Origin: Anaerolineales bacterium
GTDB lineage: Bacteria; Chloroflexota; Anaerolineae; Anaerolineales; Villigracilaceae
DNA length: 44,027 nucleotides
Assembly: GCA_013360875.1 (NCBI GenBank)
Contig: JABWAU010000017.1
Span: 1-44,027 of the forward strand
Direction of reading: 5' to 3'
The position numbers were made by a program, and so were the translations under genes. Shown here piece by piece: positions 29,828-44,027 of this stretch; the first letter of the stretch is position 1, and the number at the start of each line of letters is the position of its first letter. The notes under the pieces were generated by a model that was given only the letters and a program-made list of their open reading frames with translations, was not told the origin of the DNA and did no database searches.

Positions 29828-29899
29828 GAATCTTGAAAGTTGAGCGGAAAATTTTATTTCGGGAGCGGAGTCTTACGTTTCATCCATGGGACATGGCAC

Positions 29900-31270
29900 A
29901 TGAAATCGTTTGGGAAAAGATTGGGTTCGTATATAAAATCACTGGCTGAACCGCTTACAAAATGGCGCTGGGTGATCCTTGCCCTCATCGGTCTATCCCT
30001 GTTATGGGTGGAAATCCTAGAGTTCCAGGAGTTCCAGGTGTTTGGGGAACCCTTTCATTACATTGAGGTGTTCCAGTATGCCGTGCTTCTCGCCGCCACC
30101 GGAATTCTGATCGAATTGTTCGCGCGCTCCAATCGCGCCCACAAGCAAGCAGTAAAGATCCTGGAATATAAACACCGCCTCAGTCTGGAATTGGCGTCGG
30201 ATAAAGATTCGGAATCTCTGATCGGGAAACTGACCAAATTGCCCGCCAGGATCGCGAATGTCGAAGAGACGTACCTGCTTGTCAATGACCCTCTGAGTGG
30301 GAAATTCGAAAGGGTGGGACATTGGATCGCAAATACGCAGGCGCTTCATGCGGGCGTTTGGGATCCAACCCTGACTTGCGCGAGATGCCAGGAAAAGAAC
30401 GTCAATGAAAGGATCATCTTTAACTGTTGCCGCAGCGATGAGGGCTTTCCCTCGAATCGTGTGTATTGTCTGGGATTGCGCGGCGATGACTTTCCCATTA
30501 CCATCCTTAAATTCCGACTTGCGCCCGGCTTGAAACTTTCGGAGGACGAAGAAGAGGTTTTCGAAAACATCGGGGATGAGATCATTGTGGCAATTCGGGC
30601 GAACCGGGATCGCGAAAGACTGGCTGAAATGCAATCCGCCCAGGTGGCAATGGCGGAACGCCGCGCCATTTCCAGTTTTGTCCACGATCAACTGGGTCAG
30701 AATCTCGGCTATTTGCAATTGAAACTGGATCAACTCGGCTCTGATGAAAAGATCAGAAGCATGAAAAACGTCTGGGTGGAAATGCAACGGTTGCGGGAAA
30801 TCGCCAACGAGTCTTATGAGATCGTGCGCGACATTCTCAGGAAGATACAACCCGAGACCAGCCCACACCTCACCAACCTTTTGCAGGAACATGCCAGGTC
30901 TATCTCCCGCAGGGCGAATTTTGCGCTCGATTTCAAATCTGTGGGCAAGCCTGTCCCCTTGACCCCCAGCGCCCAACAATTGATCTTTTTCACCTTTCGT
31001 GAGATCCTCAGCAACGTGGAAAAACACGCGAACGCAAGCAAGTTGGACGTGCTTGTCGTTTGGAACGATGGCATTCTCGACATCACGGTGGCGGACGACG
31101 GCGGGGGATTCGATACCAACGCGGTTCCCCAGGATGATCATTTCGGGTTGACGATCATGCAGGAGAGGGTTGCCAATGTAGGGGGAAAGTTCCTGGTCAC
31201 ATCATCCACCGACTCTGGCACGGTTGTTTCGATAAGCGTGCCGCTTGAGTCCATCATGGTGAAGACATGA
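29900..31270 (+). CDS. Sensor histidine kinase, HisKA_3 type with Cys-rich GAF-like sensor
   Basis: A 456-residue kinase from the ATG at 29900 (a TTG at 29840 would lie almost at the transcription start). Two membrane segments (about 23-37 and 58-74) are followed by a coiled-coil and a GAF-like domain (100-235). This domain contains Cys160, Cys163 (TCARC), Cys176, Cys177 (FNCC) and Cys190, suggesting a metal or redox site. The phosphoacceptor is His262 in FVHDQLGQNL (HisKA_3 motif). The ATPase region has REILSNVEKHANAS, VADDGGGFD and GLTIMQERV. It overlaps the response regulator gene by four bases, so they form a two-component pair of the NarX/LiaS type. Confidence 0.9.
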   Translation: MKSFGKRLGSYIKSLAEPLTKWRWVILALIGLSLLWVEILEFQEFQVFGEPFHYIEVFQYAVLLAATGILIELFARSNRAHKQAVKILEYKHRLSLELASDKDSESLIGKLTKLPARIANVEETYLLVNDPLSGKFERVGHWIANTQALHAGVWDPTLTCARCQEKNVNERIIFNCCRSDEGFPSNRVYCLGLRGDDFPITILKFRLAPGLKLSEDEEEVFENIGDEIIVAIRANRDRERLAEMQSAQVAMAERRAISSFVHDQLGQNLGYLQLKLDQLGSDEKIRSMKNVWVEMQRLREIANESYEIVRDILRKIQPETSPHLTNLLQEHARSISRRANFALDFKSVGKPVPLTPSAQQLIFFTFREILSNVEKHANASKLDVLVVWNDGILDITVADDGGGFDTNAVPQDDHFGLTIMQERVANVGGKFLVTSSTDSGTVVSISVPLESIMVKT

Positions 31271-31950
31271 ACAATCAGGAAATGCCTCCCCGAAAAGTGC
31301 TGATTATCGAAGACCATGTCCTATTTCGCGATGGATTGATCAGCCTGTTCCACTCCACCACAGATTTCCAGGTCGTGGACCAGGCTGGCACGATCAGGGA
31401 AGGCGTTGAAAAAGCCTTTTACCACAAGCCTGACGTGATCCTGATGGATTTTTCCCTGCCCGACGGAACGGGATTGGACGCAACCAGGGCGATCCTGGCG
31501 GAATTGCCCGAATGCAAGATCGTCTTTCTCACGGTTTTCGAAACGGACGAAAATCTGATGGAAGCCATCCGCCTCGGCGCGAAGGGATATTTGCTTAAAA
31601 ATATTTCCGGTTCCTCTCTGCTGGCAAGCCTTCGCGCTCTCGACCAGGGGGAGGTCGCCATGTCGCGCAAAATGATGAGCCGGGTGATGGAATTTTCGCG
31701 CTCCGGCGCCCTCCCTCCAGCCAGCGACGCGCTCTCCCGACTCAGCCCCCGCGAAATCGAAATCCTTTACGAATTGCAAAACGGAGCGTCGAACCTGGAG
31801 ATTGCCAGCCGCTTATTCCTTTCCGAAAACACTGTGAAGCATCACATCCATAGCATCCTGGATAAACTGGGGGTGAAGAACCGCCATCAGGCGGGCGTGC
31901 TTGCAAGACAATTGGGATTGAAGAACGGAAGGTCCGGGACCGGCAAATAA
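31267..31950 (+). CDS. NarL/LuxR-family response regulator
   Basis: A 227-residue regulator. The receiver domain has acidic Glu15-Asp16, phosphoacceptor Asp61 in ILMDFSLPDG, Thr89 and Lys111. The C-terminal LuxR-type helix-turn-helix spans about 155-215 with LSPREIEILYELQNG, EIASRLFLSENTVKHHI and ILDKLGVKNR. Start overlaps the kinase stop. It should bind DNA when phosphorylated; likely targets are its own region and the secreted-protein genes downstream, by position only. Confidence 0.95.
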   Translation: MNNQEMPPRKVLIIEDHVLFRDGLISLFHSTTDFQVVDQAGTIREGVEKAFYHKPDVILMDFSLPDGTGLDATRAILAELPECKIVFLTVFETDENLMEAIRLGAKGYLLKNISGSSLLASLRALDQGEVAMSRKMMSRVMEFSRSGALPPASDALSRLSPREIEILYELQNGASNLEIASRLFLSENTVKHHIHSILDKLGVKNRHQAGVLARQLGLKNGRSGTGK

Positions 31951-32087
31951 CGCATCTGTTGCATCGTTACGCGGGGATTAACCCCCGGCGGTTAATCCAT
32001 CCAGGAAAGGATCGTCCAAAAGATGATCCTTTTTTGATTCCAAATTTCGACAAAGGGCAATGGACATACGCAATCCGGGAGAGTATC

Positions 32088-32471
32088 TTGATTGCGGATA
32101 AAAACACTCCTGTTAGGTGTAATTCTTTGGAAAAGCGCTGTTTTTTCGTAGGACGAAGGGATTCATTATTCAGGCAACTCGTGGCGAGCCTGTTGGTTGA
32201 TTTGACCGTCAACCTCGATCTGTACGAAAGCAATGCGGATTCGACAGGCGATCTAATCGAGGAGGTGGCGGAGGTCGAACCGCACATCATCCTGCTCGAG
32301 GAATCGTCGCCCTTTTCCGAGAATTCTTTTCTCGTGCGTTTGCTGATCGCGAAGCCGGGCGTGCCGGTGATCGTGATCGGCGAGGAATCCAATTTCATGT
32401 ACATCGTTCACCTGGAGACCAAACTTCTGAGTTCATCCGACGAATTGATCAAAGCCATCGAACGGGTCTGA
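32088..32471 (+). CDS. Degenerate receiver-like protein
   Basis: A small protein whose start is uncertain; TTG at 32088 with GGGAG six bases upstream is chosen, while the open frame extends back to 31959. The core alternates strands and helices as in receiver domains: CFFVGRRDSLFRQLVASLLVDL, then PHIILLEESSPF, and VPVIVIGEES. The phosphoacceptor position after the third strand holds Glu-Glu rather than Asp-based LxMD, so it may be unphosphorylatable or mimic the active state. It sits between the two-component genes and the giant secreted protein gene. No family name is recognised, and function is only suggested by position. Confidence 0.55.
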   Translation: MIADKNTPVRCNSLEKRCFFVGRRDSLFRQLVASLLVDLTVNLDLYESNADSTGDLIEEVAEVEPHIILLEESSPFSENSFLVRLLIAKPGVPVIVIGEESNFMYIVHLETKLLSSSDELIKAIERV

Positions 32472-32584
32472 CCCCGCCTGTCCTGGCGCAATGGAAAAGG
32501 AGCATGCAAGGCATTGAAAAACCACATCCACCCACCCATCTATGTTGTTGTGACGATTCAAGTAATTCCACAAGGAGGTAAAGC

Positions 32585-35500
32585 ATGACCCAGGAAACCC
32601 CAACCCTTTCATCCCGCCGCGGCGCAGGAGCCTGGCGATGGGGTGTAACGCTTCTCACCATCCTGGTGATGGTGATCGGAGGCGTTACACCGTCTTCGAT
32701 ATCCGGGCTTTTCGTTGAACGCGCCGCCGCGCTCACCACGTCCCATTTGACGTTGCACGTTGTGGACGCAGGAGACTCTTCCGCCATCGGCGAATACAAA
32801 TATCTCATCAACGTGGATAATACCGGCAACCCGTTTCAGGCGCGTGAGGATGGCTGCTCGCCCGACGACCCGGGCTATCCGGATTCCTGCGATTGGCCCT
32901 CCATCCGCGCCGTACCGGGCGCTGCGCCCATCTTCGCGCAGGGAAATCAGGACGATTTCAACGGTGTGAACATGAACGGCTTCGATCTCCCCGATGGAAA
33001 ATACCTGATCAGCGTGATGGCGAACGGATACAAACTCGGCGGCATCCATTTCACGGTGCCGCTGCAGGGAACCGGCGAAGTCACCGTCCGTCTCCATCCG
33101 CATCCGCTGCCCACAGGTACAATACGGATCAAGGTCTTCCATGATAACGCCTCTACCAATGGGCAATACGATACCAGCGAAAGCGGTCTCGAGGGATTCC
33201 ACGCGGTGGTCAACGATATCGTCGGACAGGTCTCGACGGACATCTTCGGCAATCCGCTTTGCACCACTTACGACGCAGGCGGAAACCCGACCGGCATCAA
33301 CCTATATGGCTGTTTGAACAGCGACGCCAACGGGGACATTGTCATTCCGAACCTGGGGCCCAACCGTTACGATGTGACCGTCATTCCGCCTCCAGGACAG
33401 ACATGGCTGGAGACCACCACGTTGGAAGGCGGTCTCAGTTGGGACACCTGGCTGCAAGAGGGCAGTACAGGCTTGGACAATGAATTTGTCGTCGCGGCTG
33501 AACCATTCCCCTGGACCATATTCGGCTTTGTCGAGCCGATGGACAATCTCAATGATCCCGAAGTAACTGGCGGCATAAGCGGCACATTGGTTGCCGCGTC
33601 GGTCTTCCAGCCTCCGGCAGGGGCTTTACCCTCCTATTTCGGCGATCAATGGACCGGTTTCAGCGGTGTGAAAGTTCTCGGACCCGTCACCGATGGCTGG
33701 GTCGCGCTTTCCGACCTGCAGAACGCCATTGACCAAACCGTGTACGTTGCACCCGCCAACCCCGATGGGACATTCGTCATCAATAACGTGCCGGATGGAA
33801 ATTATCTGTTCACCTGGTGGGACCAGAATCTCAACTACATCCTTGACCTGAATCAGGTAACGGTTGCGGACGGTCAGATAACGGACATGGGCACGCCTCT
33901 CTTGACCGGCTGGTTCACCCGAATTGATGGATATGTCTTCAACGATCTGAACAGCAACGGCAAACGGGATCCGGGCGAACCGGGCATTGCCGATTACCTC
34001 GTCGTGCTGAAAGACCGCGATAACAGCGAGATTGACCGCATGTCCATCGCGGCTGTCACGGACGCGAACGGCTATTACCTGTTCGAAAAAGCCTATCCGA
34101 TGGGATCGTGGATGATCCTCGAGGCGTACCACGACCGCTATTACACGACCGGCGTCACCTACCAGGTCGAGAATCAGCCGGAGGAGACAACCGTCCTCGG
34201 CGCTGGCGTGGACGTGGGCGTCCTGCCCATCCTCGGTCAGGGCGGACGTTTGGACTGGGGCGTGCGCCCGTACGCTCCCGGCACGAATGGCGGGATCGTT
34301 GGCACGGTCTTCTACGATGTGACCCGCAACGAATTGGACGCGCAATACCAGGCAGTGGAAGGCTGGGCGCCCGGCATCCCCGGTCTTCTGGTCACGGTTT
34401 CCAAACCTGTGTACTGCCCGTTTGACGACGTGACGCCGTGCGACCCGACGGAAACCTTTGCGCTCGCGGAAGACGGCTCGATTGCCAGGGATATGACTGC
34501 CGGCGGCGTTGCCTGCGGCACCGATCCCCTCGCGGCGTGCGATCCAACCGGCACCTGGGAGTTGGATGGCAGCGGCAATTATAAGGTGGGCCCGATTGTC
34601 AGCACCGCCATCACCGAAACGTGGGAACAGCCCACAGGGTGTATCGCGCGCAACGCGCACGGGGATCCATCTCCGCAATTAGTCCTGCCTACAGACCCGG
34701 AGGCGCGCTGTCTCGAAGCGCCCCTTTTGGGTACGCAATTCCAAAACGGATTTGCAACTCTTGATGGCAACTACGGATTCGATACCATCTACTCCGGCTT
34801 CGGGAGTGCGGACGAACCGGTCGGCACCTCCATTCCCGCGGGAGATTACCTCGTGGAAGTGGTCGTCCCGAATGACAGCTTGGGCAGGCCAATGTACCAG
34901 GTCGTGCGCGAAGAGGATATTAACGTCTTCGGCGGCGACGAGTTCATCCCCGCAGTGCCGCCTCCTCCCTGCGCAGGTCCCATGCACATCGTGGACGTGG
35001 CAGGCGTCGGCGCGGACGGACCCGAAGCGGTGGACAATCCCTCGTTCGCGGACGCGGGCGGGAGTCCCTTCGAGGGGATGCAGAAACCGCTGTGCAACGT
35101 CAAACTCGTTACCTTGAACAACGGCAAATCCATCGCACCGGGCTTCACCTTCTTCACCGACGTCCCGCTTCCCGGCCGCTGGAAGGGCTACATTATCAAC
35201 GACCTGGCGATCTCCACCGATCCTCGAAGCCTGTTCTACGGCGAGGTGGCGGGTCTTCCCAACTCCCCGATCGGCGTCTACGACTTCACCAATAACATGG
35301 TCGCTTCGATCACCTCCGACCCGAACGGCGTGTACGAGATCCTGCTTCCTTCGACGTATTCGATGAACTGCCCAACGCCCTCCGGCGTTTGCCCGAACGT
35401 GTATTACATCCAGGGCAACGACCCGAACCTGGCGGGATACAATCCGCAGTTCCGCACCATCGGAACGCTCTTCGAGATCTATCCGGGCTTGATCCTCCCC

Positions 35501-38500
35501 TCGGATCTTGCCCCAACGCAGGCTGTCTCCAGCGTGCTGGCGGCGGATTCGCAATTCAATTACGCGCCGCAATGCCTGCTCGATTCCGCCACGCCGCAAC
35601 TCTTCAGGGTCTCCCAACCATACGGAAGCCCCGGATCGAGTTTCACGATTACAGGTCTGGGATTTGGCGAACAGAGCGGAGGCAGTCAGGTGACGTTGGA
35701 TGGAATCCCACTTGACATCTCCTCGTGGACTGATACCGGCATTTCCGCTACCATCCCGACCTCGATGCCGATCGGTCCTCATCAACTTTCGATCCGCTCG
35801 GGCAACGGCAAATCCACCGTCAACGGCTTGACCTTCCACGTGACCGGTTACGGCAATTTCCCAGCCAACGGCGTGTTGGATGATTTCAATCGAGCCAATG
35901 GCGTTCTGGGCGCGGATTGGGGCGGCAACGTAAACAATCAAGCCACCTATCGCATCAACGGTAACAACGTGCAAGTGCGCGGCAGCGGCAACGCCTGGTG
36001 GACCTCGGCTACATATGGCGCGAACCAGGAAGCCTACTTTACGTTCGTTCAACTCTCCACCTCGGCAAGCGAACAGGCGCTGCTCCTGAAATTCAGCGGG
36101 AATAATCCCGCCGCCAACAATGCCTCGGTGATCGAAGTCACTTACGGCAGCGGGGCAGTGCGCGTCCGCACCAAGAACCCGGGGCAAAACCTGAACAACG
36201 CGGTCACCCGCGCCACGTTCCCTGCCGCGTTTGCGGCGGGCGACCAACTCGGCGCGCAGGCGTTCGAGGATGGCACGGTTGTCGTGTACAAAAACGGCTC
36301 CCCGATAGGATCCGTCAACGTCTCGGTTGCCGGCGCGTGGACCCTCGGCGGCGGTCGCATCGGTGTTCGCTTCAATGGGACAACCAACGTCAACTTTGCC
36401 CGCTTCGACGACTTCGGCGGCGGCGACGCGGCGGCTCCATACCTGCCTGCCATCTACGAAGTCGGACCCGGCAAGCCCTATGCGACCATCCAAAGCGCGG
36501 TGGATGCCGCCTCTGCGTCAGGCGGCGCGCGCCTGGTTGTGGTCTATCCAGCCTCGAGCGGCATGTACCTCGAGAACGTGGTTGTCTACGACTCGATCAT
36601 GTTGCAGGGCGTTGGTCCCGGCGGCATGTACGCTAATGCGACCAAAGTGGATGGCTCCGTCATTGACGGGCGCGGCGTAACCGGCGATTCTCCCTATGCA
36701 GAGGCTTGGCGTGTCTTCGTCACAGGCTTGAGCTGGAGCGGCAACCAGGCGATATTCGAAGGACCTGTGGTATACGTTGTCGCGCAGGATGGCGATTTCA
36801 CCGCCGCCCACCCCGCCAGCATTGACGGCTTCACGATCCAGGGCGGCGACCAGCAGGGCTTCCCGAATCAGATCAACCCCAATGCGGGTCCGGCGAATCA
36901 CGAGATCTCTGGCATCCAGGGCGGCGGCATTTTCGTCAACGGATATGCGCGCTTCCTGCAAATCACCAACAACATAATCCAGAGCAACGGCGGTGCGTAT
37001 GGCGGCGCCATCCGCCTCGGAACGCCGCATCTGCCCGGCGCGCTGAACGATAACCAAAACGATTTCATCCGCATCGCGCACAACCGCATCCTGGGCAACG
37101 GCGGCACAAACCTGGCAGGCGCGGTGGCAATCTACTCCGGCGCGGAAGGATACGAGATCGCCCATAACGACATCTGCGGAAACTTCTCCGCGGAATACGG
37201 CGGCGGCGTCAGCCACTACGGCTTGAGTCCGGACGGGAGCATCCATCACAACCGCGTGTACTTCAACCGCTCCTACGACGAAGGTGGCGGCATTATCATC
37301 GCCGGTGAACTGCCCACAGACCCGATTACCCTCTCTGCCGGCGCGGGTCCTGTGGACGTGTACGCCAACCTGATCCAGAACAACCTTGCCAACGACGACG
37401 GCGGCGGTCTGCGCTTTCTCATGGCGGGGAACTTCGAATACAACGTATACGACAACATCATCGTCAACAACGTCTCGACGCACGAGGGCGGCGGCGTCTC
37501 CTTGAACGACGCGCCGGATGTCCACTTCTACAACAACACCGTGATGAAGAACATCACCACGGCGACCGCGCTCACCAGCAACGGTCAACCTGCACCCGCC
37601 GGTCTTGCCTCCGCGCGCAACAGCGCGCTCCTACAGGCGACTCTGCCTTCCGGCTCGCCCATCTTTAGCGACCCCGTCTTGTTCAACAACATCTTCTGGG
37701 ATAACCGGGCAGGATGGTTCGTTGGGGATACAGTGGCAGGCATCGGCTTGACAGGCGACCCGAACCCCGTCAATTACTGGGATCTCGGCGTCTCCGACGG
37801 CACGGGCTTGTTGTCGCCCACGAACTCTATTTTGCAGACCGATTACGGCACGATCCCCGATGCCTCGAACCAGTCTGTGGACCCGCAGGTGGTTGACCTC
37901 TACGACACCACCGTCAGCACATTGCCCTGGCGCGGCCATCCCCGCTTTGTGGACGTGTTGATGATCACAGTGGATACTGCGCCGAATCTCCTGGGCGACT
38001 ACCACCTCCAGGACGCTTCACCCGCCCGAGATGCTGGCGCGCCATCGAAAGGCTCCGTCTCCGCTCCGGCCTTCGACATTGACGACGATGCTCGCCCGAT
38101 CAACGGCGCCTTCGATATCGGCGCGGATGAAATTCCGCTGCTTGCCGATCTCGCCATCGCAATGGACGATGGACAGACGAATACCGCCCCCGGCAACGCG
38201 ATCACTTACATCATCGTAGTCTCGAACGCCGGTCCCAACCCGGTCACCGGCGCGACCGTGACCAACTTCTTCCCCGCCTCTCTTACCGGCGCAGCGTGGA
38301 CCTGTTCAGCCTCCGGCGGAAGTTGCGGCGCGGCGGGCGGCAGCGGCGACATCAACACAACGGTTGACCTGTCTGCGGGCGGAAGCGCGACGTTCACGGT
38401 CAACGCCACCGTCTCCGCGGGCGCGTCCCTCTCGTTGAGCAATACAGCAACCATCGCGGCGCCGTCCAACATTACCGACCCGAACCCCGCAAACAACAGC

Positions 38501-39490
38501 GCAACCGATACCAATACAATCCTGAGTGCCGACCTCTCGATCAGCGTCACGGATGGACAGACCAGTCTTAGCGCGGGCGGTCCGGTGACTTATATGATCG
38601 GCGTCTCGAACGTGGGCCCCGAACCGGTGGTCGGCGCGAGTGTGGTGGATAACTTCCCAGCCTCTCTTAGCGGCGTCACGTGGACCTGTTCCGCGGCGCC
38701 CGGTTCCAGTTGCGGCGCGGCGGGTGGAAGCGGCGACATCAATACAACGGTTGACGTTGCGGTCAACGGGGCGGTGCTGTTCTACGCTTACGCCACCCTC
38801 TCCTCGACCGCTTCCGGGACGCTCTCCAACGCTGTTGCCGTCTCGCCTCCCGCCGGGCTTGCGGACCCCGATCCCGCCGACAACAGCGCGACCGACACGA
38901 CCGACATCCTGGCGTATCAATTCCCATTGCTGGACGATTTCAACCGGGCGAACGCCAACAACCTCGGCGCGAACTGGAGTCAGGCAAACACCGGACTCAA
39001 AGTTGACCTGCGGGTCAATAACAACCAGGCAGTCGCCAACCAGGTCAACGACCGCGGTCAGGCAATCTGGAACGCATCGGTATTCGGCGCAAACCAGGGA
39101 GCCTCATTCACCTTTGCCAACAACACCCGGCACAACGCGGCGTTGATCCTGAAAGCCAGCGGAGGCACCGTCACTGCCCCGTCGAACTTCATCCGGGTGC
39201 GCTTCCAGACGACCGGAGGCGGACGGATACTCGTCCAAACCACGACAAACGGCGGCGGTTCCTACACCACCCGCGGCATCCTTACCGGAGTTCCATTTGC
39301 CCTCGGAGACACATTGACCGCCGCGGCGTACTCGGACGGGACGGTCAACGTGTACAAGAACGGCGTGCTGGTTGGAAGCGTCTCGACCTCCGCGGCGGGA
39401 GCGTGGACTCTGGGCGGCGGGCGCATCGGCGTACAGTTGCAGACCAACGGCATTCGTGTGGATGCCTTCAAGGGCGGCAGCCTGCCCTAA
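32585..39490 (+). CDS. Giant secreted multi-domain surface protein
   Basis: A 2301-residue protein. AAGGAGG lies six bases before the ATG. Residues about 18-50 form a long signal peptide ending near RAAALT. Modules in order: SdrD-B-like repeats (about 177-305, 445-555, 569-765, with VFNDLNSNGKRDPGEPG); an IPT/TIG domain (1005-1090); an LamG-like module opening DDFNRANGVLG (1097-1279); a right-handed beta-helix with many GG- and asparagine-rich turns (1292-1852); two tandem DUF11 domains (1853-1980, 1981-2112); and a second LamG-like module opening DDFNRANANNLG (2116-2301). No sorting signal or membrane anchor ends the chain. Such proteins mediate adhesion or polysaccharide binding, but no enzyme active site is recognised. 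It is followed 69 bases later by the multicopper oxidase genes. Confidence 0.9.
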   Translation: MTQETPTLSSRRGAGAWRWGVTLLTILVMVIGGVTPSSISGLFVERAAALTTSHLTLHVVDAGDSSAIGEYKYLINVDNTGNPFQAREDGCSPDDPGYPDSCDWPSIRAVPGAAPIFAQGNQDDFNGVNMNGFDLPDGKYLISVMANGYKLGGIHFTVPLQGTGEVTVRLHPHPLPTGTIRIKVFHDNASTNGQYDTSESGLEGFHAVVNDIVGQVSTDIFGNPLCTTYDAGGNPTGINLYGCLNSDANGDIVIPNLGPNRYDVTVIPPPGQTWLETTTLEGGLSWDTWLQEGSTGLDNEFVVAAEPFPWTIFGFVEPMDNLNDPEVTGGISGTLVAASVFQPPAGALPSYFGDQWTGFSGVKVLGPVTDGWVALSDLQNAIDQTVYVAPANPDGTFVINNVPDGNYLFTWWDQNLNYILDLNQVTVADGQITDMGTPLLTGWFTRIDGYVFNDLNSNGKRDPGEPGIADYLVVLKDRDNSEIDRMSIAAVTDANGYYLFEKAYPMGSWMILEAYHDRYYTTGVTYQVENQPEETTVLGAGVDVGVLPILGQGGRLDWGVRPYAPGTNGGIVGTVFYDVTRNELDAQYQAVEGWAPGIPGLLVTVSKPVYCPFDDVTPCDPTETFALAEDGSIARDMTAGGVACGTDPLAACDPTGTWELDGSGNYKVGPIVSTAITETWEQPTGCIARNAHGDPSPQLVLPTDPEARCLEAPLLGTQFQNGFATLDGNYGFDTIYSGFGSADEPVGTSIPAGDYLVEVVVPNDSLGRPMYQVVREEDINVFGGDEFIPAVPPPPCAGPMHIVDVAGVGADGPEAVDNPSFADAGGSPFEGMQKPLCNVKLVTLNNGKSIAPGFTFFTDVPLPGRWKGYIINDLAISTDPRSLFYGEVAGLPNSPIGVYDFTNNMVASITSDPNGVYEILLPSTYSMNCPTPSGVCPNVYYIQGNDPNLAGYNPQFRTIGTLFEIYPGLILPSDLAPTQAVSSVLAADSQFNYAPQCLLDSATPQLFRVSQPYGSPGSSFTITGLGFGEQSGGSQVTLDGIPLDISSWTDTGISATIPTSMPIGPHQLSIRSGNGKSTVNGLTFHVTGYGNFPANGVLDDFNRANGVLGADWGGNVNNQATYRINGNNVQVRGSGNAWWTSATYGANQEAYFTFVQLSTSASEQALLLKFSGNNPAANNASVIEVTYGSGAVRVRTKNPGQNLNNAVTRATFPAAFAAGDQLGAQAFEDGTVVVYKNGSPIGSVNVSVAGAWTLGGGRIGVRFNGTTNVNFARFDDFGGGDAAAPYLPAIYEVGPGKPYATIQSAVDAASASGGARLVVVYPASSGMYLENVVVYDSIMLQGVGPGGMYANATKVDGSVIDGRGVTGDSPYAEAWRVFVTGLSWSGNQAIFEGPVVYVVAQDGDFTAAHPASIDGFTIQGGDQQGFPNQINPNAGPANHEISGIQGGGIFVNGYARFLQITNNIIQSNGGAYGGAIRLGTPHLPGALNDNQNDFIRIAHNRILGNGGTNLAGAVAIYSGAEGYEIAHNDICGNFSAEYGGGVSHYGLSPDGSIHHNRVYFNRSYDEGGGIIIAGELPTDPITLSAGAGPVDVYANLIQNNLANDDGGGLRFLMAGNFEYNVYDNIIVNNVSTHEGGGVSLNDAPDVHFYNNTVMKNITTATALTSNGQPAPAGLASARNSALLQATLPSGSPIFSDPVLFNNIFWDNRAGWFVGDTVAGIGLTGDPNPVNYWDLGVSDGTGLLSPTNSILQTDYGTIPDASNQSVDPQVVDLYDTTVSTLPWRGHPRFVDVLMITVDTAPNLLGDYHLQDASPARDAGAPSKGSVSAPAFDIDDDARPINGAFDIGADEIPLLADLAIAMDDGQTNTAPGNAITYIIVVSNAGPNPVTGATVTNFFPASLTGAAWTCSASGGSCGAAGGSGDINTTVDLSAGGSATFTVNATVSAGASLSLSNTATIAAPSNITDPNPANNSATDTNTILSADLSISVTDGQTSLSAGGPVTYMIGVSNVGPEPVVGASVVDNFPASLSGVTWTCSAAPGSSCGAAGGSGDINTTVDVAVNGAVLFYAYATLSSTASGTLSNAVAVSPPAGLADPDPADNSATDTTDILAYQFPLLDDFNRANANNLGANWSQANTGLKVDLRVNNNQAVANQVNDRGQAIWNASVFGANQGASFTFANNTRHNAALILKASGGTVTAPSNFIRVRFQTTGGGRILVQTTTNGGGSYTTRGILTGVPFALGDTLTAAAYSDGTVNVYKNGVLVGSVSTSAAGAWTLGGGRIGVQLQTNGIRVDAFKGGSLP
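32642..32691 (+). promoter_or_regulatory. Long hairpin inside the signal-peptide coding region
   Basis: GGTGTAACGCTTC (32642-32654) pairs with GAGGCGTTACACC (32679-32691, one wobble), and inside it TCACCATC (32655-32662) pairs perfectly with GATGGTGA (32668-32675) around a five-base loop; only TCG (32676-32678) bulges. The stem lies 57 bases after the start codon of the giant protein gene. Confidence 0.6.
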
Positions 39491-39506
39491 GTTGTAACCT
39501 GTGAAG

Positions 39507-39538
39507 CCTGTGGGAGGCTGTCATCAGCCTCCCACAGG
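39507..39538 (+). terminator. Perfect intercistronic hairpin before the first cupredoxin gene
   Basis: CCTGTGGGAGGCTG (39507-39520) and CAGCCTCCCACAGG (39525-39538) are perfect complements of 14 bases with a TCAT loop. No T run follows; the next gene's AAAGGAG site begins about 10 bases later. It may be a partial terminator or a 3'-end stabiliser of the giant-protein mRNA. Confidence 0.55.
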
Positions 39539-39559
39539 ATCAGCCAAAAGGAGTCACTT

Positions 39560-40864
39560 ATGAAACTGGATAAATTCCCCCGTCGAATCAACCGGCGCGA
39601 CTTTCTGAAACTGGCAGGGAGCGGGTTGCTCGCCGCGGGCGGCATCGGCGTTGCCCACAGGCTGGCGTCCGGCTTACTCCTCCCCGATTTGATCGCCTCC
39701 GCGCAGGGTGAGGAACCGGACCTGGTCTTCGCGGCGACCGATGGCTGGATCTATCTGCCGCCTCTTCCCACCCCTTCACCGTATCACCCGGACGACCTTT
39801 CTCCCGACCCAAGCCTTTTTACAACCTACATGTTCGGCTTCAGGAATGTGACTGGTATGACCGAGGAGCAGATTCTCAATCAAAAAATGAAGGCGCAACA
39901 CTCGGCGCCCATGTTCTGGATCAACGAAGGTCAACAGTTCCGGCTCGAACTGCGGAACCTCGGCTTGCAGATGCGCCCCGACCTGACCGACGCCCACACG
40001 GTGCATTTCCACGGCTTCAAGAACGCCATTCCCTTCTTCGATGGCGAACCTTCTTCGTCCGTGTCCGTGCCGATGAATCGCGCCTTCACTTACATTTATC
40101 GTCCGCACGATCCCGGCACGTATATGTTCCACTGCCACGTGGAGGATGTGGAACACGTTCAAATGGGTATGACGGGACTGGTCTTCGTCCGCCCGGCGCA
40201 GGATGGCAACACGTCGCTGTACCCGAGCGGCAAATACGTGTTCAACGACGGCGATGGCTCCACCGGTTACGACCGCGAGTTTGGGATGCACCTCAGCGAA
40301 ATGTGGGTGGATTCGCACTGGGCGGATTCGCACATCCAACTACCCGAATGGAGCGATTACAAACCCGATTTTTCGATGATCAATGGACGCGTGTATCCTG
40401 ATACGGTCGCCCCCAACGGTCAGGGCTTCGACGCAAACGGCGACCTGATCGCGCCGGACGGCTTTCCATACCTCCAATACCAGCCCATCTCTTCGCTGGT
40501 GCAATGCAACGAGGGCGAACGGGTGTTGTTGCGCTTTACCAACCTCGGTTTCATGCAGGCTTCGATGACGATTGACGGCATTCAAATGCGCGTGGTCGGC
40601 AAGGACGCCACGTTCCTGCGGAACGGCGGCGCCGACATCAGTTATCTCACCAACACCGTTGTCATCGGCGCAGGCGAATCATTCGATGTCATCTTTACCG
40701 CCCCCACTCATTCCGGAGGAAGCGGACCCGATACCTACCTGCTCTATAACCGCAACTTCACCATGTCTCATTCCATCGGCGATTTCGGCGTGGGTAAGCA
40801 GATGACGGAGATCCGCGTCCACCCCGCCGGGAGCCTGCCCACCCAGACGGCGCCGAATACGTAG
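39560..40864 (+). CDS. Tat-exported multicopper oxidase-like protein with type-1 copper site (protein A)
   Basis: A 434-residue protein with two cupredoxin domains. The Tat signal is NRRDFLKLAG (11-20) with a hydrophobic stretch and cleavage near residue 49. Domain 1 keeps HTVHFHG (His146, His149, His151) and GTYMFHCHVEDVEHVQMGM, with His191, Cys192, His193, His199 and Met202/204 giving a type-1 site plus two HxH pairs. Domain 2 has FMQASMTIDGIQM where a histidine cluster would be expected, and its C-terminal segment TMSHSIGDF lacks the HCH motif. A complete trinuclear site therefore cannot form within this chain. AAAGGAG precedes the start. It is followed 15 bases later by protein B. Confidence 0.85.
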   Translation: MKLDKFPRRINRRDFLKLAGSGLLAAGGIGVAHRLASGLLLPDLIASAQGEEPDLVFAATDGWIYLPPLPTPSPYHPDDLSPDPSLFTTYMFGFRNVTGMTEEQILNQKMKAQHSAPMFWINEGQQFRLELRNLGLQMRPDLTDAHTVHFHGFKNAIPFFDGEPSSSVSVPMNRAFTYIYRPHDPGTYMFHCHVEDVEHVQMGMTGLVFVRPAQDGNTSLYPSGKYVFNDGDGSTGYDREFGMHLSEMWVDSHWADSHIQLPEWSDYKPDFSMINGRVYPDTVAPNGQGFDANGDLIAPDGFPYLQYQPISSLVQCNEGERVLLRFTNLGFMQASMTIDGIQMRVVGKDATFLRNGGADISYLTNTVVIGAGESFDVIFTAPTHSGGSGPDTYLLYNRNFTMSHSIGDFGVGKQMTEIRVHPAGSLPTQTAPNT

Positions 40865-40879
40865 CCAAAGGAGTTCATC

Positions 40880-42151
40880 ATGCTCAAGCATTCCCATTTC
40901 AGACCCCATAAGGTTTTGACGACCCTGTTTGCGCTGGCGTTGATCCTTTCGTTGTCCGTCGGCGGAAAATCGGCGCAGGCGCAGGCACCCGCCTCCGACG
41001 GGATGGTCTGCACTTATGGCCCGAGTTTCAGCCTCACTTCTCAAACCGGCTACGTCGGCACACCCGATGGAAACGTCGTGTTCATGTGGGGGCTTTCCTC
41101 CGGCTCGGATCCCTTCCAATATCCGGGACCCGTCCTGTGCGTGAACGAGGGCGATACGGTCACCGTCGTGCTGCACAACACGTTGAACCGCGCCACCTCT
41201 CTCGTCTTCCCGGGGCAGGAAAACGTCCTGGCGGACGGGGAACCGGACGGGCCCGTGTTCAGCGTCGGGGGGACTCTGCTTTCGATGGCGAAGCAGGCGT
41301 CAGCGGGAGGGGGAAGCGTCACCTATAGTTTTGTGGCGACGCGTCCTGGCACGTTCCTCTATTATTCCGGCACAGAAACCGACATCCAGGTCCCGATGGG
41401 TTTGTTCGGCGCGATCGTCGTGCGTCCCGCCGGTCATCCGGATTGGTTATACGGCGATCCCAAAACCGCCTTCAACCCGAACAGGGAATACATCGCCCTG
41501 TTCTCCGAGGTGGACCCAATGCTCAGCGCGGCGATGGAACAGAACCGACCCTTCAGCGCGCGGAACTATCACCCGCGTTACTGGTTCATCAACGGGCGTG
41601 GACTTCCCGATACGCTCGCGCCCAATTACGCGTCGTGGCTGCCGGGTCAGCCTTACGGCGCGCTGGTTCGCATCACACCCTGGCACGAGACGTTGAACCC
41701 CCTCCCGGCAGCGGTGCGATATCTGAGCGTCGGCACAATTGATTATCCCTTTCACCCGCACGGCAACAACGTGCGCGTGGTGGGACGCGACGGCAACCTG
41801 CTGGCCGGCTCGGTGGACCTGGCGTACGACAAATATTCGATCCCCGTCGGACCCGGCCAGGCTTGGGATACGCTCTTCACCTGGCACGACCCCGAAGCCT
41901 ATAGCGCCGGGAACCCGGTGCCTGTGACCTTTGCCAATATCCTGGATATGTTCTTCGGCACTTTCTACAGCGGAAGTCCCTATCTGGGAACGCAGGGTCC
42001 CGTCCCGGTTGGAACGACGATCCAGAACCAATGCGGCGAGTACTATCACATCGCGCACAACCACGCCCTGTACCAACTGACTTCGTGGGGCGCGGTGATG
42101 ACAGGCATGGGCACCTACACGCGCATTGACCCGCCGGAGGGCTGTCCGTAA
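40880..42151 (+). CDS. Multicopper oxidase-like protein with domain-2 histidines only (protein B)
   Basis: A 423-residue secreted protein with a Sec signal peptide (about 12-35, ending AQAQA). Domain 1 resembles cupredoxins (YPGPVLCVNEGDTVTVVLHN, then GTFLYYSGTETDIQVPMGLFG) but has no HxH pairs. Domain 2 carries DYPFHPHGNNVRVVG (His292, His294) and YYHIAHNHALYQL (His390, His393, His395) with downstream Met407/Met410; there is no Cys between the histidines, so no type-1 site. This is the mirror image of protein A. A heteromeric enzyme with protein A is possible; alternatively it is a degenerate structural relative. Start has AAAGGAG. Confidence 0.85.
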   Translation: MLKHSHFRPHKVLTTLFALALILSLSVGGKSAQAQAPASDGMVCTYGPSFSLTSQTGYVGTPDGNVVFMWGLSSGSDPFQYPGPVLCVNEGDTVTVVLHNTLNRATSLVFPGQENVLADGEPDGPVFSVGGTLLSMAKQASAGGGSVTYSFVATRPGTFLYYSGTETDIQVPMGLFGAIVVRPAGHPDWLYGDPKTAFNPNREYIALFSEVDPMLSAAMEQNRPFSARNYHPRYWFINGRGLPDTLAPNYASWLPGQPYGALVRITPWHETLNPLPAAVRYLSVGTIDYPFHPHGNNVRVVGRDGNLLAGSVDLAYDKYSIPVGPGQAWDTLFTWHDPEAYSAGNPVPVTFANILDMFFGTFYSGSPYLGTQGPVPVGTTIQNQCGEYYHIAHNHALYQLTSWGAVMTGMGTYTRIDPPEGCP

Positions 42152-42179
42152 TGGGCAGAAAGGTATGAGGAGAATTCCC

Positions 42180-44027
42180 ATGAAAACAAATACATTGCAT
42201 CCACTTCGGGCGAGCCTGCTGACATTGGGGTTGATCCTTGCGATCATCGCCTCGGCGTTTCCCCATTCGGTTTCCGCCGCGGTGCTGCCCGCCTCCACGT
42301 GTTCGGAAGCGGGCGGCGTCCGCACTTGTGATTTGTACGCGACCACCGGCACGCTGTCACTGCCAGGCGGCGGGAGTGTGACGATATGGGGATACGCCGC
42401 CAACAGCGGAGACCCCGCATCCCTGCCCGGGCCCATGTTGATCGCCAACTCCGGTGAGACGCTGGTCGTCGTCCTTCATAACAACCTGGGCGAATCCACC
42501 TCACTGACCATTCCCGGCCTGGGCGGCGTTTCAGACTTAACCGGGGCTGGGCCGGGCGGTACGAAGTCTTACATCTTCCCCAGCCTTCAGCCCGGCACGT
42601 ACATTTATCAAGCCGGTCCCACTGCCAATGGCGAACGACAGGTGGGGATGGGAATGTACGGGGTCCTGATCGTCCGCCCGGCCGGCGCGCCACAGGAGGC
42701 TTACGGGCCCGCTTCAACCTTCGACGATGAGGCTGTCCTCGTGATGAGCGAGGTTGATACTGCGCTGAATGCGGCTCCGACGACTTTCGACATGCGCAAC
42801 TACACGCCGAGGTATTTCCTGTTCAACGGCAAGGGCTATCCCAACACGGACGAGATGGATACGATTGCCGGGCATAAAGTCCTTTTGCGCGTGGTCAACG
42901 CGGGGATTCAAAGCCATCCCATCGGCGTTTTGGGATTGCGCTACACTGTCCTTTCCATGGACGGGAAACCTTTTGCTTATCCCTACTCCGCAGTTTCCGA
43001 GACCCTCGGCGCGGGTCAGACCGCCGACCTGCTGGTGACGATACCGGCAACCGCGCCGGGCAACCAGCGTTACGCGGTCTATAACCCGAGCATGAGGCTG
43101 TTGAATAATAACCAGCGCTTCGGCGGTATGTTGACCTTCCTGCACGTTCTGGGAAGCACAGGCATCGGCGATCAGACCGGTCCCTCCGCCAGCGGACTAT
43201 CCCTCACGCCGAATCCCTCCAATGGCTCCAGCCTGATCACACTTAATGCGACCCTCACCGACGCGGAAAATAACGTGGTCCAGGCTGAATACTTCCTGGA
43301 TGCCGCCGGCGCGGATGGAAGCGGCATTCTGATGAACGCGTCGGACGCCGCGTTCGACGATTTGACGGAAGCAGTTACGGCTGTGATTGACCCGGCGCCG
43401 ATGTCCTCCGGCAGTCATGTCGTTTATGTCCACGGAAAGGACGCGGCGGGCAACTGGGGCGCGTTCAAGTCGGTCGTCCTGATCCTCGACAAGGCGGGAC
43501 CTTCCATCAGCAGTTTATCCGCCAATCCCAATCCGAGCAGTGGCTTGGTCAGCGTTTCGATCAGCGGCACGGCGAGCGACAGCGCCTCAGGCAACAGCAA
43601 CGTGGTGGACGCGGAGTTCTTCATTGACGTCTTGGGAGCGGACGGTTCCGGCACGCCCATGACGCGCAACCAGACCGCGCCGGTCGTCTCCCTCAGCGGA
43701 ACGATCCCCGCCTCCACGATGAGCGGTTTGAGCGAGGGCTATCACTGGGTCTACATCCACGCACAGGATTCCTACGGCAATTGGGGACCGTTCGGCTCCC
43801 TGCAATTCGGCGTGGATAAGACGGGACCCGACGCCGGCAACGTACAACTGAGGCCCAACCCGAACAACGGCTCGCTTCCCTATTCGCCCTCCATCCAATC
43901 GGTGCGTGTGGACGCGCGCTTCACCGAACCCGGTTCCGGCGCGGTGACCTCCGCTGTGAAGAACGCCGAGTTCTTCATTGACACGGTCGGCGCGAACGGC
44001 ACTGGCATCCTTATGACCCCCACGGAC
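42180..44027 (+). CDS. Cupredoxin-like secreted protein with C-terminal repeats (protein C), 3' end outside window
   Basis: The reading frame runs from the ATG at 42180 (GAGGAG site upstream) to the last base, 616 codons, without a stop. A signal peptide ends near residue 34 (SVSAA). Two cupredoxin-like domains align with proteins A and B (LPGPMLIANSGETLVVVLHNN, GTYIYQAGP, QVGMGMYGVLIVRP; then RYFLFNGKGYPNT). Nearly all copper ligands are lost; one HP remains in IQSHPIGV. From about residue 339 come three related repeats of roughly 103 residues, each with NPxNGS...VVxAEYFLD-like...GADGSGxxM and AAGNWG or YGNWG; the third is cut off. It probably has a binding or structural role. Confidence 0.85.
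   Translation, partial: MKTNTLHPLRASLLTLGLILAIIASAFPHSVSAAVLPASTCSEAGGVRTCDLYATTGTLSLPGGGSVTIWGYAANSGDPASLPGPMLIANSGETLVVVLHNNLGESTSLTIPGLGGVSDLTGAGPGGTKSYIFPSLQPGTYIYQAGPTANGERQVGMGMYGVLIVRPAGAPQEAYGPASTFDDEAVLVMSEVDTALNAAPTTFDMRNYTPRYFLFNGKGYPNTDEMDTIAGHKVLLRVVNAGIQSHPIGVLGLRYTVLSMDGKPFAYPYSAVSETLGAGQTADLLVTIPATAPGNQRYAVYNPSMRLLNNNQRFGGMLTFLHVLGSTGIGDQTGPSASGLSLTPNPSNGSSLITLNATLTDAENNVVQAEYFLDAAGADGSGILMNASDAAFDDLTEAVTAVIDPAPMSSGSHVVYVHGKDAAGNWGAFKSVVLILDKAGPSISSLSANPNPSSGLVSVSISGTASDSASGNSNVVDAEFFIDVLGADGSGTPMTRNQTAPVVSLSGTIPASTMSGLSEGYHWVYIHAQDSYGNWGPFGSLQFGVDKTGPDAGNVQLRPNPNNGSLPYSPSIQSVRVDARFTEPGSGAVTSAVKNAEFFIDTVGANGTGILMTPTD

Follow-up and report, generated by a model that had tools for sequence, protein, structure and literature searches.

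A putative heterotrimeric multicopper oxidase with copper ligands divided over adjacent cupredoxin proteins in an Anaerolineales bacterium

The window analysed here is an entire contig of 44,027 bases (JABWAU010000017.1, assembly GCA_013360875.1) from an Anaerolineales bacterium of the Chloroflexota, and it encodes three consecutive cupredoxin proteins, named A, B and C below, with complementary sets of copper ligands. We propose, at a probability of roughly 0.75 and from sequence evidence, that the three form a heterotrimer related to the type C two-domain multicopper oxidases, in which a single site, at the interface of A and B, is functional. A split trinuclear copper site common to A and B is the well supported part of this proposal, as judged from the ligand patterns described below. 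We further infer the assembly itself, the order B-A-C of the subunits in a ring, copper loading, oxidase activity and attachment to the cell surface.

Organization and copper ligands of proteins A, B and C

All three open reading frames (ORFs) were confirmed on the plus strand, downstream of the gene of a giant protein, which is on this strand too, as are the histidine kinase and response regulator genes described below. Protein A (39560..40864, 434 amino acids (aa)) has two cupredoxin domains and a twin-arginine-like signal, as seen from the ORF, Pfam and alignment. The two cupredoxin domains of protein B (40880..42151, 423 aa) are seen by the same means and in the model comparison, and protein C (42180..44027; ORF and Pfam) has two cupredoxin domains followed by repeats and is truncated at the contig end. 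Multicopper oxidase (Cu-oxidase) domains were found in A, B and C in a Pfam scan. The stop codon of A is TAG, and B starts 15 bases downstream, preceded by AAAGGAG. The most likely start of C is the ATG at 42180, preceded by GAGGAG, in favour of which a TTG at 42126 was set aside.

The ligands of A are found in domain 1 only. Residues 146-151 (HTVHFH, 39995..40012), aligned to domain 1 of the solved structures 3g5w and 2zwn, hold the type-1 His146 and the trinuclear His149 and His151, and residues 191-204 (HCHVEDVEHVQMGM, 40130..40171) hold the trinuclear His191 and His193 together with the type-1 ligands Cys192, His199 and Met204. Protein A thus has the type-1 ligands and half of the trinuclear histidines, and its domain 2 is without such a set. 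The other half is found in B, in domain 2 only, where HPH at residues 292-294 (41753..41761) and HNH at residues 393-395 (42056..42064) align with HSH and HDH, respectively, of domain 2 of 2zwn; domain 1 of B has none. The cupredoxin part of C contains zero H-x-H pairs.

Conservation of the ligands was followed by aligning the window and 30 relatives, which gave 31 rows each for A and B from several phyla. H146, H149, H151, H191, C192, H193, H199, M202 and M204 are kept in 31 of 31 A rows, and H292, H294, H393 and H395 in 31 of 31 B rows, an invariance which argues that the ligand pattern is not due to chance. A ligand table of 13 chosen and aligned triads shows the same division. In 13 of 13, A is complete for the ligands of domain 1 but has no His-x-His pair in domain 2, B has the two pairs of domain 2 and none in domain 1, and C is without any pair. 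Lone histidines are left at ligand columns in domain 2 of A from G448, in domain 1 of B from G375, G416 and G448, and in domain 1 of C from G375 and G448 (G and L mark genomes and loci, respectively). The original prediction, made from the sequence of the window, had described three consecutive cupredoxin proteins with complementary ligands, carried by the first domain of A and the second of B, next to a C protein nearly free of ligands and provided with repeats; ORFs, Pfam domains, motifs and the 31 rows agree with this description.

The loss of the ligand pairs in C, and the neighbourhood of a large surface protein, could also mean that the trio consists of retired oxidases, retained as structural surface proteins only. 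We consider this very improbable, as all ligands of A and B are invariant in 31 rows from several phyla, which requires that selection on the metal site has continued.

Two further residues of A, M189 and H253, are invariant (31/31), and H258 is present in 30 of 31 rows. The two conserved histidines of residues 253-258 (40316-40333, SHWADSHIQ) are not ligands of known copper sites.

The repeats of C matched the Ig-like Pfam family Big_13 in six of the seven long C relatives scanned (E up to 0.01), two of these six matches being under the Pfam cut-off. In loci L013 (9980-13885) and L014 (11711-15616), C has approximately 300 additional N-terminal residues ahead of the cupredoxin domains.

Comparison with known copper proteins

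A profile of A compared with solved structures gave 3g5w as the best match (2.2e-17), followed by 2zwn (4e-15), and the motifs of A align on the first-domain copper motifs of both. We take 2zwn, a metagenome laccase, and 3g5w, the blue copper oxidase of Nitrosomonas europaea, to be type C two-domain multicopper oxidases. Like these enzymes, the proteins described here have two cupredoxin domains per chain, a type-1 site in domain 1, and the trinuclear His pairs of both domains at matching places. Unlike them, each of which has a full set per chain, the putative A/B set is split over two gene products, so that a trimer could hold at most one site.

Copper nitrite reductases (NirK, AniA) have the same two-domain fold and carry a metal site at their subunit interfaces. 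They differ in that this site is a single type-2 copper, whereas the His-Cys-His of A together with the two domain 2 His-x-His pairs of B would make up the eight-histidine set of a trinuclear centre. A, B and C together have six cupredoxin domains, as have the six-domain oxidases (ceruloplasmin, MnxG), and the ring that we propose would hold one trinuclear site where three would fit. In contrast to the single chain of the six-domain oxidases, A, B and C are separate, and the type-1 site is in a first domain. MnxG contains its whole active site, and here the active site itself would be divided, between homologous subunits. The Mnx complex is similar in being a multicopper oxidase complex from more than one gene product; it consists of MnxG and an MnxE3F3 hexamer, and MnxE and MnxF are stated to be without known homologues (PMC5622069). 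PMC3600357 describes a mononuclear site in domain 2 of the bacterial six-domain proteins and places their trinuclear site between domains 2 and 3.

Types A, B and C of the two-domain enzymes are defined in PMC13151041, where type C has its type-1 ligands in the N-terminal domain and two-domain enzymes are trimers in which each trinuclear site is built by residues of two protomers. Type-1 ligands in the N-terminal domain were found in A alone, the set being absent from B and C, and no chain has the four trinuclear His-x-His pairs (A two, B two, C none). By fold, each of A, B and C is a two-domain multicopper oxidase; by ligands, none of them corresponds to the definition on its own.

Two other curated NCBIfam families gave scores far below their cut-offs for A, B and C: copper nitrite reductase (TIGR02376) with 27.2, 30.8 and 49.1 bits against 296.3, and the CopA/PcoA copper resistance oxidase (TIGR01480) with 31.2, 31.8 and 38.5 bits against 478.95; both assignments were set aside.

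The proposed enzyme

In the mechanism that we propose, A, B and C would have arisen as three copies of a type C two-domain multicopper oxidase, since diverged, and would assemble into a single extracytoplasmic heterotrimer. The ordinary homotrimer of such a protein has three interfaces, and at each of them the first domain of a subunit and the second domain of the adjoining one together make a trinuclear site. Here, two of these sites would have been lost, and what would be left is the interface between domain 1 of A, with the type-1 copper and four trinuclear histidines, and domain 2 of B, with the other four. Electrons from the substrate would enter at the type-1 copper of A and travel along the His-Cys-His bridge to the trinuclear centre shared by A and B, where oxygen would be reduced to water. 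Protein C would close the ring and link the enzyme to the giant surface protein, and we regard it as probably being both the third ring subunit and the tether, in place of the scaffold suggested in the original prediction. If the ring of the homotrimer has been kept, the order B-A-C follows, in which the B2-A1 interface would be alive, and A2-C1 and C2-B1 would be without both halves. That exactly the four remaining half-sites are dead is what would be expected if one interface survives. As for the substrate, our guess is a metal ion from outside the cell, either Mn or Fe, or alternatively a phenolic compound.

The pattern RRxF[LIM] is found near the N-terminus in 19 of 31 A rows and in none of the 31 B or 31 C rows; the A protein of the window carries a twin-arginine-like signal, and among the remaining A rows some are truncated and some have RRDLL instead. 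Since the twin-arginine-like pattern occurs in A only, export of A may take place in the folded state and that of B and C via Sec, in which case assembly would take place outside the cytoplasm.

Occurrence and gene order

A scan of genome contigs with A returned 58 stretches, 30 of them encoding a relative. The hosts are Chloroflexota, Methylobacter and another member of the Methylococcaceae, Cryobacterium and other actinobacteria, an Oxalobacteraceae, a deltaproteobacterium, an Ilumatobacteraceae and a Nitrospirae bin. In all 30 fetched loci the order is A-B-C on one strand. No fusion of A, B and C into a single chain was seen among the 30 loci, each of which has them as separate reading-frame segments (30/30).

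Two genome samples were then covered by profile searches (E up to 1e-30): 301 Chloroflexota genomes, the window's own genome included, and 151 genomes from the order of Methylobacter tundripaludum. In the Chloroflexota sample, A was found in eight genomes (nine copies), B in ten and C in 31. Coordinates place B and C next to all nine A copies, with about 1 kb between the B and C matches in G061. The two additional B genomes, G244 and G300, hold undivided relatives. The additional C genomes match at 1e-31 to 1e-52, compared with 1e-91 or better for the triads, and those inspected (G244, G300, G185 and G277) encode other multicopper oxidases. The Methylobacter-order sample has A in six genomes (seven copies), with B and C beside each. 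Pooled, the two samples thus have B and C adjoining 16 of 16 A copies. The same ligand division occurs in divergent members from G375, G416 and G448 (Methylobacter order) and G288 (Chloroflexota). Some genomes hold multiple A-B-C sets, namely two in G246, three in G309 and two in G416.

In a plasmid collection, matches to A, B and C were found in 62, 141 and 205 records, respectively, most of them weak. Among the matches listed (15 each for A and B), the identical eight records stand out at E < 1e-40, and these belong to Cupriavidus metallidurans and Paraburkholderia.

The original prediction had further suggested that A and B form one site, and had named homologues regularly occurring alone, or a complete histidine set within one chain, as findings that would speak against it. 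Neither was encountered: A was not found alone, B and C being present beside each of the 16 copies, and on alignment the complete set is absent from A, from B and from C. The suggestion is therefore supported at the level of sequence.

Undivided and differently divided relatives

The undivided relatives in G244 (a 374-aa ORF) and G300 (a 389-aa ORF) have all ligands within one chain. Two other relatives have the ligands divided in different ways. In G185, a single ORF of 815 aa (L104, 575-3019) combines an A-like and a B-like unit, unit 1 having only the domain 1 set and unit 2 only the domain 2 pairs. The two units are followed by what looks, by eye, like a third domain of plastocyanin-like type, and this ORF appears as a four-domain oxidase with the split within one chain. 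In G448, beside a normal triad, an adjacent pair of ORFs (L103, 6613-8565) encodes a protein of 343 aa with only the domain 1 set and one of 307 aa with only the domain 2 pairs; no third copy was found next to this pair within the 14 kb examined.

A pair without a third partner, and an ORF of just two units, are what one would expect if A and B share the site and C stays outside the ring, either in an A-B heterodimer or in a trimer with two A or two B subunits, with C as a mere linker. Protein C is also the least conserved of the three, with a mean pairwise identity of 0.487 compared with 0.627 for A and 0.589 for B. On the other hand, C retains both cupredoxin domains and adjoins A and B in 30 of 30 loci, and its dead half-sites fit the third seat of a ring. 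We therefore regard such an arrangement as unlikely and prefer the heterotrimer with C as a ring member.

An unrooted tree of 50 proteins was calculated, in which 13 selected triads were included. A, B and C each form one clade (support 100/100, 98/98 and 99/98, respectively), and B and C are sisters (100/99). The identical two deep groups are seen in A, B and C, one with C. metallidurans CH34, G416, L033, G375 and G448, and the other with the window and the rest. The separation of A-B-C from the outside rows is weakly supported (71/58). Membership of the second half of the G185 ORF in the B clade was rejected in a topology test (p of the approximately unbiased test (p-AU) 2.6e-5), and grouping of A with its first half was not rejected at 0.05 (p-AU 0.063). 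Tests of B and C together with the second half of the G185 ORF, or with the 307-aa protein of G448, gave p values of 0.026 and 0.32, respectively. From these tests it is likely that the split in G185 arose separately, and with the G185 ORF and the G448 pair both outside the A, B and C clades, the division of the ligands may have arisen more than once.

Structural models

An A-B chain of the window, with the stop codon read through, was modelled with AlphaFold from 39 rows (7 A-B chains, 20 A and 12 B), a subset of the rows available. The model is fair, with a predicted local distance difference test score (pLDDT) of 76.5 and a predicted template modelling score (pTM) of 0.73. Its B half aligns with 2zwn at Z 28.9 (276 residues, root mean square deviation (rmsd) 2.7), with 3g5w at 28.7 and with 3gdc at 28.0, and these three are tied as its best fits among 983 chains aligned. 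A model of A-B-C from locus L005 was also calculated by AlphaFold, from 10 rows. The C part of this poorer model gives Z 24.5 to 27.0 with two-domain oxidases and nitrite reductases, 2zwn and 3g5w both being at 26.2.

Several observations weigh against the heterotrimer with a shared A-B site. The VIA matches listed cover the B half of the A-B model only and are uninformative on the A half. Compared by Foldseek with the six-domain proteins listed (ceruloplasmin, factors V and VIII, and Mnx), the whole A-B model, which is without C, gives an rmsd of 15.5 to 21.5 and a query TM of 0.23 to 0.29; such poor whole-model fits give no support for the ring and leave the A-B interface without structural support, and this is the main gap in the proposal. 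The L005 model is poor as a whole (pLDDT 60.3, pTM 0.39). In the profile comparison, the top match of B is ascorbate oxidase 1aoz (5.1e-14), ahead of 2zwn (1e-11). Domain 2 of A and domain 1 of B are approximately as conserved as the ligand-bearing domains. The 30 loci were retrieved via short A peptides and are biased to close relatives. Finally, distances over 31 loci are correlated (A-B 0.918, A-C 0.892, B-C 0.939, uncorrected for shared species history), but genes of one operon share their history anyway, and neither these correlations nor the congruent groups in the tree prove contact.

The failure of the entire A-B model to fit known rings, together with the fact that contact between A and B is so far inferred, would agree with two proteins that have no site in common, A being a mononuclear blue copper electron-transfer protein and B binding a metal of its own with four histidines. 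However, the four trinuclear histidines are kept in 31 of 31 A rows and would be needless in a blue copper protein. The complementary split also occurs joined in one chain, in G185, and B adjoins every A copy found. Separate functions for A and B thus appear quite improbable, and a putative site shared by the two is still what we favour.

The giant surface protein and neighbouring genes

The giant surface protein (32585..39490, 2301 aa) has SdrD_B, TIG and DUF11 domains and a weak choice-of-anchor Q match below the cut-off of that family. A relative is found upstream of A, by tblastn, in every one of the 28 loci where more than 1 kb precedes A. Downstream of C, tblastn detected a small protein, D, in 27 of 28 loci with more than 600 bases there, and a subtilase-like protein, E, beyond D in 25 of 26 loci with more than 3 kb; L027 is the sole locus missing both. 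If looser clustering is used instead, the giant protein is present in 26 of 30 loci and D in 18 of 30. The E proteins were assigned to Peptidase_S8 by Pfam in six of six scanned, and no Pfam match was found in the three D proteins scanned.

Two of the eight plasmid records shared by A and B were inspected, those of C. metallidurans CH34 and P. caribensis, both Burkholderiales. In both, A and B are followed by a single long ORF that combines C and the giant protein. The fusion ORF of strain CH34 (L099, NC_007974.2 1335305-1343428) has 2,708 aa from stop to stop, with the C match at 38-433 and the giant match at 816-2703, and that of P. caribensis extends past the end of the stretch that was read. 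Protein C is thereby tied to the giant protein, and the association of the trio with a giant surface protein, already part of the original prediction, is strengthened by this fusion and by the upstream relatives. Upstream of A in L099, some ORFs look, by eye, like components of a type II secretion or pilus system.

Farther upstream in the window lie genes, identified by Pfam, for a histidine kinase (29840..31270) and a LuxR-type response regulator (31267..31950), with relatives at E up to 1e-10 in 9 and 10 of the 30 loci, respectively. The response regulator is a possible candidate regulator of the locus, and the kinase its possible partner. A 170-aa ORF without a Pfam match (31959-32471) is located between the response regulator and the giant gene, and relatives in a similar position are found in 4 of 30 loci (L006, L007, L009 and L028). 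Between the giant gene and A there is an inverted repeat (39507-39538) that has perfect 13-bp arms around a 6-base loop and lacks a T run; it may cause the giant protein and the oxidase to be made in unequal amounts. Over 32300-44027, sites resembling promoters or terminators showed no excess over shuffled sequence.

Significance

A search for heterotrimeric, heteromeric or split multicopper oxidases and laccases found nothing apt, which is weak evidence as it covered open-licence papers only. In the portions of the C. metallidurans literature that were available, the locus, looked for without its locus tags, was not seen mentioned. We think there is a good chance that A-B-C is the first recognised multicopper oxidase with a single trinuclear site divided over two gene products, and a heterotrimer that stands between the homotrimeric two-domain and the single-chain six-domain forms.

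Six-domain copper proteins such as ceruloplasmin are thought to be derived from trimers of two-domain proteins. A-B-C appears to stand midway between simple copper oxidases made of three copies and those made of a single chain, human ceruloplasmin among them. If our proposal is true, a heterotrimer with two dead sites, and with its chains still separate, would be the kind of intermediate required by a history of this sort. It would also provide a natural example of an oxidase formed by uniting two incomplete proteins. The system is present in cultured bacteria, namely Methylobacter tundripaludum, Cryobacterium and Cupriavidus metallidurans, and it would give a starting point for finding out what a family of giant surface proteins, so far without a name, does.

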